Translations under genes and position numbers: made by a program
Source of the DNA: Neptunomonas concharum
GTDB lineage: Bacteria; Pseudomonadota; Gammaproteobacteria; Pseudomonadales; Balneatricaceae
Length of the DNA stretch: 64,000 bases
Assembly (NCBI RefSeq): GCF_008630635.1
Contig: NZ_CP043869.1
Coordinates: 2,417,160-2,481,159 of the forward strand
Direction: 5' to 3'
The notes under the pieces: generated by a model
What the model was told of the DNA's origin: nothing
Database searches by the model: none
The model's input: the letters and a program-made list of their open reading frames with translations, nothing else
Shown here: positions 45,097-55,517 of the stretch, in pieces
Position numbering within the stretch: the stretch's first letter is position 1
How the letters are laid out: each line of letters opens with the position of its first letter

Positions 45097-48000
45097 TTAC
45101 TGATGTCGCTGGAAAATCACCTTATCGTGGCTACGGTATTTCCCAAAGTAAATATCTGCAGATGGATCATCATCAAACCCACCAAGACCATTCCAGTCAT
45201 AGCGCAAATAAGGTAAGCGGGATAGATCTACTCCAAGCCCAATAGTCCCATTTTTACCCTCCCCTGGCGCACTCATCTGTAAACCAGCATCCCCAACATC
45301 GACCCTAAAGTCGCTTGCTGGATAGGCAAAGGATGGTGACGTGCTTCCATCAGCCATCAACGACCCCATTTGATCAATAAAACTGACTTCACTATTTAGC
45401 CACGAAGTGCAGCTATCAAGAGTATTCGTTACAAAGTCATTACCATCATAGTATTCCACTGACCAAGGCACTGGCAGAATCTGGGTTTCTGGACCATAGG
45501 CATCGGATAGATGAAGTCGCCCAAATCGCAGCTCCCACACCGGTATACTGCTGACCGTGTAATCACTGCAACTCTCTTCTAGCCAATCACCATCACCATC
45601 TGAATCTACTCGGTAACAAGCACCATCGCTGTCTGTTAAGTCAGGAGAAGGAACCAATAAATCCGTTATACCACTGAAAGGAGCCTCTAGCGCCACGCGT
45701 TGATAAATAATCTCATCACCCGATAAGCGATTCAGACCAATGCCATCATAATTCTGATCAGAACTACCCCAGCTTCCCCCTGTCGCATTAATAACATCAC
45801 TAAAGGTTGCTGCTGCAGTACTCCTATCAATGTAAGCTCTACTTGACCATTGAGGTGACAACTTCCATAAAGCCGCCCCGTAGTTGTTAACGCGTACACC
45901 TGATGCGTTAAAAGCCGTCACCGTCAATTCAGGATCGTCTTGATAGGCAATACGCTTGTCCAGATAATTAAATTGATTCATACCACAATGAGATTGCCAT
46001 TGCGGTGAATTTGCTGCCAGCCCAAAATGCGAAGGTATGAATCGCCCCAAAGGGGTCGACATCACTGCAATCAAATGCCCAAAATAGTTGGTATCTCGTG
46101 TGAATAATTGCAGACTCCCTACTTCTGAGTACGTCACCGCAGTATCGAGTAACTCCCCTCCACTAAAGTCGGTAGAGACATTGAGCCAAGAAGCACTATC
46201 GGCCACAGTTAAGCTTGAAGCCGCCAGATTCAGACTACCAGAACTCCCACCAACAGCTAGGGTAGGTAAAAGCAACTGGGCACCTATTTCTGCCTGGGAG
46301 GGCTGATAATTAGACGTCAGCCGCCCATCCGCACACTGCGCGGATACTTTTAAGTTAAAAGGATTTGCCGCAGCCCAAGTGATCCCTCCGACACTACTTC
46401 CATTATGCAAAAGCGCACCACTTGGCGTTGTCGCTTGCGCCGTCAATTGTGCTGGATAGACTACAAAATCATCCGACCCTGTCAGGATTTTTTGCCCTGC
46501 GGTTAGCGATGCATAAAGCCCCATACGGCCTGCATCTGCATAACGCACCGTCATAGATGCAACACCTTGTGCATTGAAGTTCATCGTAACTGGCGTACCA
46601 GGAGCAGTACCTGCTACGATGTAACTATTACCACTGCTTGTTATTTGCACCGGCTCAGTACCCGAGCTAGGCTGCAGATATTGACTATAAAAGTTAACTG
46701 TTCGACTTCCTGCAACGGCACTGCCGCAACTCAATGTCTCCGGCTGAGTTCTGACCGCACTCACATTAACCGTCACAGATGATTGACAAGATTCCGTATC
46801 CGGCACATCGAACACTAAGCCTGAATCGGAAACACTTAAATTCAAATCTTCAGCATGATTACTATCGCGCTTATCGGTTGCTGTGCCATCGCTTACATCA
46901 AAATTAACCAACTCTGGATCAGTAGCCAGAGAAGGGTAAGAGAACGCCAAAGTAACGCTTGTCTCGCCATTATCCGGGAATTGATAGGTCGCTTGCCCAT
47001 TACCTAAGTCCGTTAATACTCCACTACCCGCTATAACGGACAACCATCGCCCTTTACTTGTACTCGTCGAAATTTGCAGTAACGCATCTTCTGCATCAAC
47101 GGCTAAGTCTCCACTATCATGAGCGGTAAAGGTCACATGCTCAGTTAAACAACTCACTAAAGAACCACTATGAGACACGGAGTAATGATCAACTGATGGT
47201 GGCGGTGTGCAATTACAGGGCCTGACACTGCCATCGTAATTTCTTCCTGCTTGCTCATTAGCAAAAATATCTTCGACCTCAAAGGGAGTTAGCGCCACAT
47301 CAAAAACTTTAACCTCATCAATATCACCATTGAAAAAGCGCGCAGCAACACCTTGATCTTGGCCAATCTGCAACTCCCGATTATTTATGACCAAACCATC
47401 GGGATATGATTGACGAGCCACTTCAACCCCATCTAAATAGATGATTTGCTGATCTGGTTGATAGGTCACTACCACATGATGCCATTGGCCAACACTCACT
47501 TGAGCGCTAGACGTTAAGTTTCGTGTCACACCATTACTATCATTCCACCACCAATATATTTGGCGATTTTGATTGATATGAATTTCATAGTTTGTATCTT
47601 TAGATATGAAGCTTTTTAGCTCCGTCGGGATTGCATCTAACTTGACCCACGCTGTCACAGTGAGACTCGTTGATAAATCAAGCAGCCCGTTATCCGGTAA
47701 ACGAATAAAGTCATCCACACCATCAAACTGAGCCAGACCGCATACTTGACCTCCCACTGTAGATATCACACCATTGACAGAGTATGCATCCAAACTATTA
47801 GGCCCACTATCTACAACATCCTGATTATCGGACCAGTTGCAATCATCCATGTGGTAATTGACAACAGGGGCCGGAAGAATGCAATGTCTCGGGGTTCCAT
47901 CATAGTTATTCCCCGCTCGCTGATTATTGTAAATCTCGGCAATCTGTTGCGTGTTAAGTTCACTTGAGAACAGCATGGGCTCGTCAATCCAACCATCCCA

Positions 48001-49008
48001 GTCCTGACTTAGATCAAAACCACCACCCAATGCATCTTGTTCTTGACCCATCACAACGCTGCCAGGGGACAGATTTAATGGACCTTGAGCAACGCCATAT
48101 CTACAACCTTGAAGTGCACCATCAATATAGAGGCAGTTTTTATCCGCTCGTCTGGTATAGACAAAATGGTGCCATTGGTTATCAGCAAAGTCTGTGACTG
48201 CAAAACCGTTAGCGCCTATGCTAAAAGAGTCGTTTTTCACCAACGGTTGGAAATAGTTACTCCTATCAAACCATAGCAGCAACTCATTACCATGATCCGG
48301 CCCAAAAGCTGAGAGCAATGCTTGTGTATTACGTTCAGATGTCTTACCCCAAACAGAGAATGACATCTCATCTTGACCATGAAAAGCAGCAGAATCTAAA
48401 GAGATAAAATCAGTTAATGTGTCCGGAGTGAAATCTATTGCTCGACACACAACGCCTGCAGCATCAGTATTTAGGGTCGTTCCTGCCTGACCGTGAAAGG
48501 AGTTACCGCTATAATCTTTAATTTCATCGGGTGTGCCGGTCCAAGATAGCTCATCTAGGTGCCAATCAGCTCTAGGGGCGGGTATGACAACTGGGCCAGA
48601 AGGCGTAAATGCCCAGCTAGACCTAAATCCCGGTGCAGTAATGATGTAGTCACTAACAAAACGGATATACATAGCTCCGGAAGAAGCAGAGTATGTACCT
48701 GTCGTTGTACCTGTGATCTGAGCGATTAGTGGTGCAGCGGCACTCGTGCCGTCATATAGATAAAGGTAGTCATATCCAGTTTCTATTGAGGCCGCAGAAA
48801 TAGTTAATGTAACCGTGCCAGCCCCCCCTGGCTGTATCAGAAAGCCACAGCTTTCATTATTGTTATAATTTGCAGTAGTTCCGCCGGAGTCGTATAAATA
48901 TCCAGTGTTAGCAGAGCTTCCTGAAGTTGAGCAAATATTTTCAGCATGGGCCTGCGAGACAATGCAAAATAAAACCCAATATAAACAAAACTGAACTAAT
49001 CTCACCAT
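45097..49008 (-). CDS. large exported MshQ-like protein (CUB, LamG and DUF6701-like)
   Basis: A 1303-residue protein with a signal peptide ending SQAHA. A CUB-like domain (about 25-133; ICSTSGSSANTGYLYDSGG, DYLYLYDG), two LamG/concanavalin-like domains (about 140-375 and 378-600; e.g. FDGVDDFIRLPDNGLL, TVTAWVKLD), and a beta-rich C-terminal half (about 600-1303) of the MshQ/DUF6701 type, with repeated Cys pairs, follow. MshQ is encoded in MSHA pilus clusters; none is near. A surface adhesin or pilus-tip role is inferred. The gene is embedded in a tRNA array and probably has its own promoter near 49035-49045 (-10-like TATACT). Confidence 0.8.
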   Translation of the reverse strand: MVRLVQFCLYWVLFCIVSQAHAENICSTSGSSANTGYLYDSGGTTANYNNNESCGFLIQPGGAGTVTLTISAASIETGYDYLYLYDGTSAAAPLIAQITGTTTGTYSASSGAMYIRFVSDYIITAPGFRSSWAFTPSGPVVIPAPRADWHLDELSWTGTPDEIKDYSGNSFHGQAGTTLNTDAAGVVCRAIDFTPDTLTDFISLDSAAFHGQDEMSFSVWGKTSERNTQALLSAFGPDHGNELLLWFDRSNYFQPLVKNDSFSIGANGFAVTDFADNQWHHFVYTRRADKNCLYIDGALQGCRYGVAQGPLNLSPGSVVMGQEQDALGGGFDLSQDWDGWIDEPMLFSSELNTQQIAEIYNNQRAGNNYDGTPRHCILPAPVVNYHMDDCNWSDNQDVVDSGPNSLDAYSVNGVISTVGGQVCGLAQFDGVDDFIRLPDNGLLDLSTSLTVTAWVKLDAIPTELKSFISKDTNYEIHINQNRQIYWWWNDSNGVTRNLTSSAQVSVGQWHHVVVTYQPDQQIIYLDGVEVARQSYPDGLVINNRELQIGQDQGVAARFFNGDIDEVKVFDVALTPFEVEDIFANEQAGRNYDGSVRPCNCTPPPSVDHYSVSHSGSLVSCLTEHVTFTAHDSGDLAVDAEDALLQISTSTSKGRWLSVIAGSGVLTDLGNGQATYQFPDNGETSVTLAFSYPSLATDPELVNFDVSDGTATDKRDSNHAEDLNLSVSDSGLVFDVPDTESCQSSVTVNVSAVRTQPETLSCGSAVAGSRTVNFYSQYLQPSSGTEPVQITSSGNSYIVAGTAPGTPVTMNFNAQGVASMTVRYADAGRMGLYASLTAGQKILTGSDDFVVYPAQLTAQATTPSGALLHNGSSVGGITWAAANPFNLKVSAQCADGRLTSNYQPSQAEIGAQLLLPTLAVGGSSGSLNLAASSLTVADSASWLNVSTDFSGGELLDTAVTYSEVGSLQLFTRDTNYFGHLIAVMSTPLGRFIPSHFGLAANSPQWQSHCGMNQFNYLDKRIAYQDDPELTVTAFNASGVRVNNYGAALWKLSPQWSSRAYIDRSTAAATFSDVINATGGSWGSSDQNYDGIGLNRLSGDEIIYQRVALEAPFSGITDLLVPSPDLTDSDGACYRVDSDGDGDWLEESCSDYTVSSIPVWELRFGRLHLSDAYGPETQILPVPWSVEYYDGNDFVTNTLDSCTSWLNSEVSFIDQMGSLMADGSTSPSFAYPASDFRVDVGDAGLQMSAPGEGKNGTIGLGVDLSRLPYLRYDWNGLGGFDDDPSADIYFGKYRSHDKVIFQRHQ

Positions 49009-52676: not shown

Positions 52677-54353
52677 TCAGCCTTTTAACGTTATCCGTAA
52701 GTGAATAGTCACACCCTGCTCTGAGGTGATTTTTAGTTGTGCACCCATATATTCACATCGCTCTTTGATGCCTAGCAACCCAAAACCAATATGAGCCTCA
52801 TTGGTTAGTTGATCTAAAGGAAACCCTTGGCCGTCATCTGAAATAACCAGATCAATAGCCTCTTTATGCTTCTTCAAACTCACTGAGACACGCTTAGCCA
52901 TAGCATGTTTTAAGGCATTCGTTAATGCTTCTTGAACAATACGGTAGAGATGAATATCAGTCCCTATAGGCATATTCACCTCCTCTATATCCAAACAAAC
53001 ATCAACACCGCTTTGACGTAAACTATTTAATGTCGGTATTTGTTGGATAGACTGCGATAAACCCAGCGTATCCAACTCTACTGGGCGCAATGCCATTATT
53101 CGGTCATACACCGTTTCATACATATCAGCCACCAGCGCTTTAATTTTCGCGCTATGGGCTATAGAAGGGCTACCTTCGGGGGACTCCTGTTCTAATAAAA
53201 ACGCCTCAACCCTGACAGCAGTCAGCAATTGGCCAAGTTCATCATGGAGCTCTTGAGCAAGATGGCTTCTCTCCTGCTCTTGGCTTTTAATCAACTGATG
53301 TAAAATAAGACGCTTTTCATCAAGTGCTTTGCTTAACCGCTGATTAGCATCTTTCAGGTCAGATCGCCGCTTGAGCAACTCATCCACGATGATATCAATC
53401 TCTTTTCTAAGGTAATTTACCTCTTTAATCCGGCTTGGTTGCCACTGGGTTGCATGCCCCTTAGACGAAAAGTTTTGCACTCCATTAATGAAGCGCTGTA
53501 GATGCTTGTCTAAAACAGACGATAAGTAGGCAGCAGCTAAGCCACTGACAAGCAAACCCGTTAGCACACCGACCATTAACAACTGCCATAATTGCTGAGC
53601 TAATGAGCGAAGGCTATCGCCTTCAGATTCAACCTGCAGTATTAACCCTTTTCCATACTTGTCTATCGATACAGGTAAGGACTGGTATTCATCTCCCTCA
53701 CTAGTCTGCTTGGGATGATATTCTGTGATAGGTATGCCTTCATAGATCAGCGTCGTTTTTGAAATGGCTTGAGTTGAGCGGTTCACAAGCTGATTGAGTA
53801 GAAGCGTGTTATTCGATAATTTGATTCCACCAACTAAACGACCTATCACTTCGTGATTATCATCGCTGAGCAGATAATCCTTTGCCATTAATACCTGCCC
53901 ACCATTTCTGAATAATCGCCAGTTACCCGAAGCGGCTAATTGATAATTTTCATAAAGTTGGCGACAGAGCTGAGGGCCAATATCAACCAATCGACTTCTG
54001 ATTAAATAGCAATGTTGGCGATCAAGCGTGATAAACAACGCAAATTGATAGCGGCTCTGCGAAGCAGCTTCAGTGCTATTCATTACCCACTCTCTCAGCT
54101 CAGTTTCCGACTGCTTTTCTAGAGCACGGAGCACATTGTCCTTTGTACTCAACGTAAGCAGTTCTTGACCCATGAGGCGTAAGTGGGCATCCAGTTCATT
54201 AACGATAGCGTGTGCGCTTCGAGACAGAAACAGTTGGGATTCATCTTTCAGAATCTCTTTGCTAGACATATAGGCATTAAAAGCAAAAATGGAGAGAAAT
54301 CCCATAATGGCTGCCAAAAAGACCAGAAAGATCAGCGTTCTGAATCGAATCAT
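52677..54353 (-). CDS. NarX/LytS-type (HisKA_3) sensor kinase paired with LuxP
   Basis: A 558-residue kinase: TM1 (about 5-28), a roughly 225-residue periplasmic region (29-255) that could hold two PAS/cache folds, TM2 (about 256-278), HAMP, coiled coil, HisKA_3 with phospho-acceptor H370 in LAQELHDELGQLLTAVRVE, and HATPase_c with NALKHA and GFGLLGIKERCEYMGA. It has no receiver or Hpt domain. The start overlaps the LuxP-like stop as TGATG. A NarL/LuxR-type response regulator is expected but is not in the window. Confidence 0.9.
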   Translation of the reverse strand: MIRFRTLIFLVFLAAIMGFLSIFAFNAYMSSKEILKDESQLFLSRSAHAIVNELDAHLRLMGQELLTLSTKDNVLRALEKQSETELREWVMNSTEAASQSRYQFALFITLDRQHCYLIRSRLVDIGPQLCRQLYENYQLAASGNWRLFRNGGQVLMAKDYLLSDDNHEVIGRLVGGIKLSNNTLLLNQLVNRSTQAISKTTLIYEGIPITEYHPKQTSEGDEYQSLPVSIDKYGKGLILQVESEGDSLRSLAQQLWQLLMVGVLTGLLVSGLAAAYLSSVLDKHLQRFINGVQNFSSKGHATQWQPSRIKEVNYLRKEIDIIVDELLKRRSDLKDANQRLSKALDEKRLILHQLIKSQEQERSHLAQELHDELGQLLTAVRVEAFLLEQESPEGSPSIAHSAKIKALVADMYETVYDRIMALRPVELDTLGLSQSIQQIPTLNSLRQSGVDVCLDIEEVNMPIGTDIHLYRIVQEALTNALKHAMAKRVSVSLKKHKEAIDLVISDDGQGFPLDQLTNEAHIGFGLLGIKERCEYMGAQLKITSEQGVTIHLRITLKG

Positions 54354-55423
54354 CAAAGCTCCGGTTTCCCTGAATAGATAAAAGCTTGCTCTATTAGCTG
54401 ATCAATAGTCTTAGTCGGCATATCTGTCGTTATAATATGAAAGTCCCCCGCAAAGACTTGAGGGATTTGAACATTATGCATATCAAGTCGTATCGCTTCC
54501 GCTATTGCAATACCGCTTTGGTCATTCATGCGCATCAAAACGATATCTAGCTTTCCCTGCTTGAGCACTTTCAGTTCAGCCTCTCCTCCACCCCAACCAT
54601 TAACGAATACGTCATCACGCCCAATTGCTTGCAAAGCATCCAGTGCCCCCAAAGCGACATCTGTTGAGCAGGCGTAGATGTACCGAATACTGGGGTAGTC
54701 GGCCAGCATATTTAGCGTCGCATGTTTCGCTTTTTCCCGACTGGCATCCGTAAAATAACTAACTTTTAAATCGTGGTAATCGCCGATATTGTTTTCAAAT
54801 ACTCCGCCTCTTTGCTCACTGAGCACGCCTTCTCCCCAAAACAAAATTCCATAAGGCGTGTTCTGGGGGAATGTAGCTTTAAAGTGTTCTGCAAGATAAC
54901 GAGCACCTTGCGCATGATCAAAACCCACGTACATAAGTGGCTGAATATCAAACCATGTTGCGATAGGCTGTGTTAGGTTCTGAATAATGAGCTTGGGGCG
55001 CGCGCGCGTTAATAGAGACTCAACAATACGCTGTTGGCGGTGACTGTTGATGGTATAGATAAGATAGTCAGGGTCTTTCTCAAGTATTTCTAAAATTTGT
55101 GTTTCCTGAAGATCCGACTCCACGTAGGGTTTGGAGAAACGAATATCCAATGAATACGGAATATCTAGATCATCTAATCGCCCTCGTAGTGCCTTAATAC
55201 TACGCTGCCAATAGTCCGACTCTTGTAAACCCGGATAAATAATCGCTATACGAACGGGCTCACCTAAAGGCTCAGTGGCAGCTCGATCTAAGCTGGACAC
55301 TAACTGACGAAACTGTAAATCTGAAATCTTTTTCTCTGAGGCAGTCGCAGAGAAAGCGATCATGGAAAAACCGATAATAATGTTCAACCATAATACATAT
55401 GAGAGTCTCGAACGAATATCCAT
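54353..55423 (-). CDS. LuxP-like periplasmic AI-2 (autoinducer) binding protein
   Basis: A 356-residue type I periplasmic-binding protein with a signal peptide (ending ATASE, about 29). It resembles Vibrio LuxP over the whole length. Residues that contact AI-2 in V. harveyi LuxP (Gln77, Ser79, Trp82, Asn159, Arg215, Trp289, Arg310) appear here as Q67, S69, W72, N149, R205, W277 and R298, and the S-T-D in YACSTDVALGA (253-255) is kept. ATG 55423 follows GTGGGA; an in-frame GTG lies four codons earlier. The downstream gene is a kinase, so the pair should form a sensor complex. Confidence 0.88.
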   Translation of the reverse strand: MDIRSRLSYVLWLNIIIGFSMIAFSATASEKKISDLQFRQLVSSLDRAATEPLGEPVRIAIIYPGLQESDYWQRSIKALRGRLDDLDIPYSLDIRFSKPYVESDLQETQILEILEKDPDYLIYTINSHRQQRIVESLLTRARPKLIIQNLTQPIATWFDIQPLMYVGFDHAQGARYLAEHFKATFPQNTPYGILFWGEGVLSEQRGGVFENNIGDYHDLKVSYFTDASREKAKHATLNMLADYPSIRYIYACSTDVALGALDALQAIGRDDVFVNGWGGGEAELKVLKQGKLDIVLMRMNDQSGIAIAEAIRLDMHNVQIPQVFAGDFHIITTDMPTKTIDQLIEQAFIYSGKPEL

Positions 55424-55517
55424 ATATGATCCCACTTCTCTTGTTTTCTCTTAACTAGTCTAGTCCACAGAGCAAGAATAAACAGATTACATCTTCACTT
55501 TTTAACGCAAAAATCGA

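Follow-up and report, generated by a model that had tools for sequence, protein, structure and literature searches.

How does a LuxP-type receptor pass on its signal when the kinase encoded beside it lacks the receiver domain of Vibrio LuxQ? The question is raised by a gene pair in a 64,000-nucleotide stretch of the Neptunomonas concharum genome (contig NZ_CP043869.1, positions 2,417,160 to 2,481,159; hereafter the window), which a preliminary description had read as a LuxP-type receptor for autoinducer-2 (AI-2) coupled to a NarX/LytS-type kinase in place of LuxQ. Our analysis indicates that the pair is likely a two-gene AI-2 receptor, in which LuxP is joined by a LuxQ-type sensor on a UhpB-like HisKA_3 transmitter that would act on a NarL-family regulator encoded elsewhere. 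The features that bear on this reading are as follows.

54353-55423, minus strand: luxP-type receptor gene (ATG start at 55423, reading frame open back to a GTG at 55435), called from phmmer, Pfam and pocket residues.
52677-54353, minus strand: sensor-kinase gene with a LuxQ-type periplasmic domain, HisKA_3 and HATPase_c and without a receiver, called from Pfam, NCBIfam and profile and fold matches to LuxQ.
54351-54355, minus strand: TGATG, the luxP stop overlapping the kinase start, read from the sequence.
53607-54269, minus strand: LuxQ-type periplasmic sensor domain, approximately residues 30-250 of the kinase (P0002 numbering, limits by eye), from the AlphaFold2 (AF2) model, fold search and profile.
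53073-53273, minus strand: HisKA_3 domain, residues 362-428, with phospho-acceptor H371 in ELHDE (Pfam E 8.2e-9).
52686-52958, minus strand: HATPase_c domain, residues 467-557, with N480, DDGQG and GFGLLGIKER (Pfam E 6.1e-14).

Both genes lie where the preliminary description had placed them, and the stop/start overlap that it reported can be read directly at the junction, GAGCTTTGATGATTCG, in which base 54353 is both the end of the receptor gene and the start of the kinase ATG.

The receptor retains the AI-2 pocket of LuxP

Residues 53-355 of the window receptor matched the LuxP structures 1jx6, 2hj9 and 1zhh at E 5e-86 in a phmmer search, and the next-best kind of protein, sugar-binding proteins, followed from E 1.4e-10. 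Homology to LuxP is full-length and exceeds that to other sugar-binding proteins, and Pfam places a Peripla_BP_4 domain in the receptor. All of the residues aligned with what we take to be the AI-2/borate contacts in the structure of V. harveyi LuxP are present in the window protein, namely Q71, S73, W76, N153, R209, S257, T258, D259, W281 and R302. The seven contacts named earlier (Q67, S69, W72, N149, R205, W277 and R298 in the earlier numbering) are likewise all present by alignment; their supposedly constant offset to V. harveyi LuxP is not constant, because a two-residue gap in the alignment shifts it from 10 residues, through R205, to 12 for the last two contacts.

We followed these positions through an order survey (390 genomes of the order, with G000 the N. 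concharum genome itself) and through 90 labelled LuxPs, comprising the window protein, nine from the order survey and 80 loci kept from the 278 LuxP relatives in a scan of named genomes; same-genome duplicates (L046, L047, L050, L051 and L053) stand outside the 90, and the script detected no LuxP frame in L185 or L187. First, in 15 LuxPs of the order survey the pocket columns were invariant, save for R209 (14/15) and S257, which varied. Second, when the 90 LuxPs were sorted by the type of their partner, N153, T258, W281 and R302 were kept in every row, Q71, S73 and W76 in 89 (one row is gapped), R209 in 89 (one cysteine) and D259 in 89 (one serine), with S257 variable (73 Ser, 13 Ala, 4 Thr). 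Third, the nine positions other than S257 were present in 11 of 11 LuxPs whose partner is a HisKA_3 kinase. The pocket was thus conserved regardless of the output, which would be expected with an unchanged ligand, and we infer that the window LuxP binds AI-2.

A ligand other than AI-2, whether another sugar or furanose or an arsenosugar, could also be carried on a LuxP-like fold. Peripla_BP_4 proteins bind many sugars, and the nine-position set was kept in none of 11 divergent LuxP-like paralogs (the 8 of the 16 loci L028-L043 with an open reading frame meeting script criteria, plus L045, L060 and L186), which form two groups with two other pocket patterns. The complete retention of the nine positions in the HisKA_3-form LuxPs argues against such a ligand for the window protein, as do observations on luxS and on gene order described below, and we regard this alternative as rather improbable.

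In the second paralog group (L045:7482-12341, L060:7946-12730 and L186), the pocket pattern is D-S-W-A-R-N-T-A-W-R. The paralog in L045 and L060 stands divergent to a gene (in L045, for another Peripla_BP_4 protein), and a HAMP-GGDEF-EAL protein comes next.

The kinase joins a LuxQ-type sensor to a UhpB-like transmitter

Profile and fold comparisons both assign a LuxQ-type periplasmic domain to the kinase. A profile of eight HisKA_3-type N-termini, with no Vibrio sequence included, gave LuxQ (3c30) as its sole significant match in the PDB (hmmsearch, E 8.6e-5), and the NCBIfam model LuxQ_Vibrio matched residues 8-336 of the window kinase at E 4e-7, its 28.3 bits falling short of the equivalog cut-off of 1200. 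A profile of 30 N-termini matched LuxQ at E 2e-64, a value that is no test of kinship because V. harveyi LuxQ was among the rows. The AF2 model of the kinase built from the 30-row alignment (mean predicted local distance difference test score 86.5) shows a pair of long membrane helices flanking a periplasmic domain of about 220 residues as judged by eye, in keeping with the earlier estimate of about 225. When this model was used in a Foldseek search, the six best PDB matches were all LuxQ chains (E 6e-10 to 2e-9; template-modelling scores 0.70-0.76 by target length), followed by other extracytoplasmic sensor domains from E 4.8e-6, a result that is not fully independent because the alignment behind the model included LuxQ sequences, that of V. 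harveyi among them. In addition, two other HisKA_3-type kinases passed the Pfam cut-off for LuxQ-periplasm (L052, E 3.9e-18; L138, E 4.7e-11). The idea of a kinase standing in place of LuxQ therefore has to be revised, since the NCBIfam, profile and fold matches make its periplasmic half itself LuxQ-type and the cytoplasmic half alone differs. Based upon these matches and those in Pfam, the most fitting description of the protein is a LuxQ sensor joined to a UhpB-like transmitter, rather than an unrelated kinase replacing LuxQ.

The HisKA_3 and HATPase_c domains of the transmitter both score above their Pfam cut-offs, the H, N and G boxes are intact, and H371 and D372 are invariant in 11 of 11 rows. 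As predicted earlier for a HisKA_3 kinase without a receiver, Pfam found no Response_reg match in the protein, which stops after HATPase_c; neither the HisKA transmitter nor the C-terminal receiver of LuxQ is present. As for the NarX/LytS-type label, UhpB (NCBIfam E 2.6e-44) fits the transmitter better than NarX (E 1.2e-14). The UhpB match is confined to residues 334-554 and reaches 151.8 bits against a cut-off of 408, and the kinase does not qualify as a full-length UhpB equivalog. The transmitters of 11 HisKA_3 LuxQs formed one clade against seven other HisKA_3 kinases (support 92/86), in a tree with few outside rows and long-branch warnings; this clade is consistent with a single fusion at the origin of the HisKA_3 form.

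LuxP and the LuxQ-type sensor occur with several outputs

LuxP-like matches (E<=1e-20) were found in 32 of the 390 order genomes and strong ones (E<1e-70) in 14, and in a wider class survey strong LuxP (E<=1e-50) occurred in 4 of 369 genomes, that of N. concharum counted. The neighbours of the 90 labelled LuxPs were a hybrid kinase (59), a HisKA_3 kinase (11), a GGDEF-EAL protein (7) or a PAS-HATPase protein (7); PAS alone, a sensor alone and HisKA plus a separate receiver occurred once each, and in three cases a partner was not found. Here, hybrid is the default label for loci that were not hand-listed (53 of the 59 are Vibrio by title), and it includes the split or short partner frames of L127, L140, L143, L148 and L178 as well as L182, whose receiver call comes from one weak seed.

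The survey of the pair in other genomes that the preliminary description had proposed thus places the HisKA_3 form at 11 of 90 labelled loci. Its carriers are the window, a genome of the same genus (G296), N. qingdaonensis, five named Marinobacterium species, G258 (same genus code), one Motiliproteus and G103, which has a LuxQ-like hybrid as well. One-base overlaps of luxP and the kinase gene like that in the window also occur in N. qingdaonensis (L104) and M. stanieri (L180). The GGDEF-EAL form was found in Marinobacterium lacunae, Marinobacterium zhoushanense, Oceanisphaera, Oceanospirillum, Pontibacterium, Amphritea and G238; LuxQ-periplasm was above the Pfam cut-off in all six proteins run (L053 = L151, L054, L154, L159, L161 and L164), a GGDEF motif is present in six of seven (missing in L159), and all seven carry an EAL-type motif. 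PAS and HATPase were confirmed by Pfam in L055, L057 and L058, where LuxQ-periplasm is absent or sub-threshold; L120, L122, L144 and L166 were labelled from seed matches.

On a LuxP tree made by a quick method from 50 of the 90 LuxPs (every fourth Vibrio retained), the labels grouped by output, with 10 changes against a shuffle mean of 28. Several origins of the HisKA_3 form on the LuxP side were considered, the form accounting for two changes on this tree, but the outlying row, L052, sits on a long branch and the idea was set aside.

Other arrangements were seen around LuxP. At L053, L054, L154, L155, L159, L161 and L164, LuxP lies beside LuxQ-periplasm proteins with PAS-GGDEF-EAL ends, a possible direct switch from AI-2 to cyclic di-GMP (c-di-GMP). 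In Marinobacterium jannaschii (L173:6969-7916), LuxP is followed by a 315-residue protein that has a LuxQ-type sensor and a membrane helix but, as read from the sequence, hardly any cytoplasmic portion. In L061-L063 (G292, G150 and G065; for example L061:5368-9861), a divergent LuxP-like protein precedes a protein of 857-861 residues, whose match to LuxQ-periplasm in L061 is E 0.07 only; the next gene in L061 is of the nucleosidase superfamily (pfs-like), and luxS is present in all 17 genomes with a LuxP-like match in the family code of these loci. Marinomonas MED121 has a similar operon, according to excerpts of PMC2561040.

Signal synthesis and gene neighbourhood

The N. concharum genome contains luxS (E 3.7e-50), for which a search had been suggested. 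The gene lies elsewhere than the pair and adjoins, in divergent orientation, a methylthioadenosine/S-adenosylhomocysteine nucleosidase (pfs-type) gene; by way of pfs and luxS, the bacterium would make its own AI-2. Together, the homology, pocket and luxS matches agree with the earlier picture of a LuxP-type receptor with an AI-2 pocket and a HisKA_3 kinase in a luxS genome. Across the order survey, 46 of 390 genomes have luxS; among the 14 strong-LuxP genomes the count is 10 (p 1.4e-7, kinship uncorrected). All eight survey genomes with the HisKA_3 form have luxS, compared with two of the other six strong-LuxP genomes. The former count argues against a ligand other than AI-2, whereas the four strong-LuxP genomes without luxS speak for one.

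The position of the pair also bears upon the ligand. Upstream of the pair in the window is an arsenosugar set (TIGR04282, TIGR04283, ArsS, ArsJ and an ArsJ-linked glyceraldehyde-3-phosphate dehydrogenase), and the five nearest upstream genes in N. qingdaonensis L104 are identical in kind, a placement that favors a non-AI-2 ligand. In G296, however, where the pair occupies the same chromosomal place and shares the downstream gene order for ~30 kb, no arsenosugar gene was matched in the 57 kb read around it and other genes (TIM-barrel/HPPD-like and HDOD) lie upstream; in Marinobacterium, the upstream genes are UvrB and TauE (by Pfam in L046 and L179, by likeness at other loci). Because the neighbour is not constant, the arsenosugar link is probably chance. 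The preliminary description had allowed for either chance or a different ligand; the first option is the likelier, and synteny sets aside an arsenosugar as the ligand.

A large protein is encoded at 45097-49008 of the window (minus strand). G296 encodes a homolog (49% identity) with LamG and DUF6701 domains, ~1 kb downstream of its own luxP-kinase pair and in the same orientation.

The response regulator

The identity of the regulator is the weakest step of our explanation. Among the three HisKA_3 kinases of the N. concharum genome, the other two, NarX and MctS, adjoin their regulators. The genome encodes nine GerE proteins, of which seven have receivers and six of the seven an adjacent kinase (names are from NCBIfam for five of the seven and otherwise from reading together with kinase and receiver matches). 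The sole receiver-bearing GerE protein without an adjacent kinase is UvrY/GacA-like (170 bits against a cut-off of 280).

G000:C1:1767341-1768003: gene for the GacA-like regulator, candidate by elimination.

Among the GerE loci read (11 of 12 in G296, 6 of 9 in G348 and 3 of 12 in G258), the GacA-like protein is the only regulator without an adjacent kinase common to G000, G296 and G348; G296 has further regulators of this kind. In other HisKA_3 loci, seeds found no NarL-family regulator directly beside the pair. The suggested search for an orphan NarL-family regulator thus yielded one candidate, but this candidate occurs with or without the pair and shares the genome with a GacS-like kinase. 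By elimination the GacA-like protein is the best candidate for the kinase's regulator, an assignment that we make tentatively and that is less likely right than wrong.

Alternatively, the kinase might act on an MctR-like regulator, the partner of MctS, instead of on the GacA-like protein or another, and the pair would then tune uptake of the tripartite ATP-independent periplasmic (TRAP) type. A TRAP-type operon lies downstream of the pair in five of six Marinobacterium loci and is accompanied, on the same strand, by an sCache/HisKA_3 kinase (L109/L046, L131/L051, L179/L047, L048 and L180; DctP, DctQ and DctM were checked in L109 and DctP and DctM in L180, the others being called by length and likeness). 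A NarL-type receiver protein comes next in the four loci where the read extends that far (MctR-like in L046, 261.9 bits against a cut-off of 300), and MctSR-like pairs occur in the N. concharum genome and in G296. By contrast, M. marinum (G348, L134) has the pair with no TRAP genes after it in the stretch read and no MctR among the six best-scoring GerE loci out of nine, and in N. concharum MctSR lies 87 kb away with MctS as the linked kinase. We consider an MctR-like target unlikely.

The LuxO model has a cut-off of 800 bits; its best match in the genome, one of many to NtrC-type regulators, scored 365 bits in a search that had no Vibrio control and did not extend to LuxU. This low score and the lack of an adjacent regulator would suit a degenerate or decaying LuxPQ without function. 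Decay is very improbable, however, given the intact catalytic motifs, the conserved pocket and the persistence of the arrangement across three Neptunomonas-type genomes and several of Marinobacterium.

The GacA-like gene lies in a stretch (L070:5064-7383; G000:C1 about 1767063-1769382) with a gene for a KfrA_N-type DNA-binding protein and genes of 147 and 92 codons without a Pfam match, in the same order in G296 and a similar one in G348. By eye, its receiver has an apparent insertion after the phospho-acceptor.

Discussion

In the explanation that we favor, LuxP would bind borated AI-2 in the periplasm and act by way of the LuxQ-type periplasmic domain of the kinase in the membrane, as in Vibrio, with the two proteins presumably forming a complex that switches between kinase and phosphatase states. 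Once autophosphorylated, as predicted, at H371, the kinase would directly target a NarL-family regulator encoded elsewhere, with no receiver of its own, no LuxU and no LuxO.

Several observations weigh against this explanation or against the GacA-like candidate, in addition to the partial dependence of the fold match and the sparse outside sampling of the transmitter tree. First, the LuxQ-periplasm (PF09308) match of the window kinase is sub-threshold (19.4 against 25.7 bits), and Pfam did not list this domain for five other HisKA_3 members run (L044, L046 = L109, L047, L180 and L104). Second, no GerE gene was found within the window, and no regulator lies beside the pair. Third, the GacA-like regulator occurs in 16 of 17 other genomes of the family (G365 lacks it), whether the pair is present or absent, and its presence alone is therefore no mark of partnership; moreover, the N. 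concharum genome encodes a GacS/BarA-like hybrid kinase (544 bits, below the cut-off of 890), which speaks against the GacA-like protein as partner. Finally, apart from the strong-LuxP genomes that lack luxS, the association of LuxP with luxS is confounded by kinship: within the family, luxS is present in 9 of 10 genomes with strong LuxP and in 4 of 8 without it (p 0.12).

The LuxP-LuxQ systems of V. harveyi and V. cholerae share with the window pair the LuxP pocket residues, the LuxQ-type periplasmic fold (predicted here) and a receptor gene directly before the sensor gene. Vibrio LuxQ, however, has HisKA, HATPase and receiver domains and feeds LuxU-LuxO, whereas the window kinase has HisKA_3 and no receiver, and no LuxO above the model cut-off was found. 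UhpB, NarX and MctS have the same HisKA_3 and HATPase_c transmitter with other sensor halves, and NarX and MctS here have a regulator next door. The GGDEF-EAL relatives resemble NspS-MbaA of Vibrio cholerae, in which a binding protein controls a GGDEF-EAL membrane protein; the binding protein is a different one, and so is the ligand, polyamines in the case of NspS-MbaA.

The literature is cited here from excerpts. In 2008, LuxP homologs were described beside PAS regulators in Neptuniibacter, Marinomonas and Desulfuromonas (Oceanospirillales and delta-proteobacteria), at a time when no luxS was known in Oceanospirillales (PMC2561040). Like the window pair, these homologs lie outside Vibrionales and beside membrane regulators; they differ in their PAS-domain neighbours, and the excerpts report no HisKA_3 or GGDEF-EAL partner. 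A distribution of LuxP beyond Vibrio is repeated in PMC6022435 and PMC11069264, and PMC7584622 and PMC9540692 describe LuxP as restricted to Vibrio. A 2016 survey of Cache domains counted 115 LuxQ-periplasm proteins, with 112 of them under one type of output and one under another (PMC4822843); from partly visible headings, the two columns may be kinases and GGDEF/EAL-type proteins, in which case a rare non-kinase form may already have been counted there. A 2025 survey lists 267 LuxPs, with AI-2 binding by the three sampled and no partners given in the excerpts (PMC12268683). In V. furnissii, the dCache kinase AsrK senses AI-2 with AsrR and acts on c-di-GMP (PMC11796354). AsrK and the CahR-type dCache receptors (PMC7584622, PMC12268683) likewise provide a short two-component or c-di-GMP route for AI-2 and combine a single input domain with many outputs, including HisKA_3 and GGDEF, but there the membrane protein itself binds AI-2 without LuxP, and AsrK favors the non-borated form. 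LuxP outside Vibrio was thus known by 2008; no description of HisKA_3 or GGDEF-EAL forms of LuxQ was found among the literature matches listed, with subscription papers mostly outside their scope.

More speculatively, LuxP and the LuxQ periplasmic domain might constitute a portable AI-2 input cassette that has been shuffled among four or more outputs (hybrid HisKA-receiver, HisKA_3, PAS-HATPase and GGDEF-EAL), which in Neptunomonas and Marinobacterium would feed the GacA-like regulator, bypassing LuxU, LuxO and the Qrr RNAs and converging with GacS; in this extended form the proposal is doubtful.

LuxPQ is usually drawn as one fixed phosphorelay, and here the same receptor and sensor domain are found on several kinds of output. 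Other marine bacteria with a LuxP sensor often encode the signal synthase as well. Provided that the ligand is AI-2, this set of proteins would show the evolutionary rewiring of one signal input, and the receiver-less and c-di-GMP circuits would allow control by LuxP to be measured without LuxU and LuxO.

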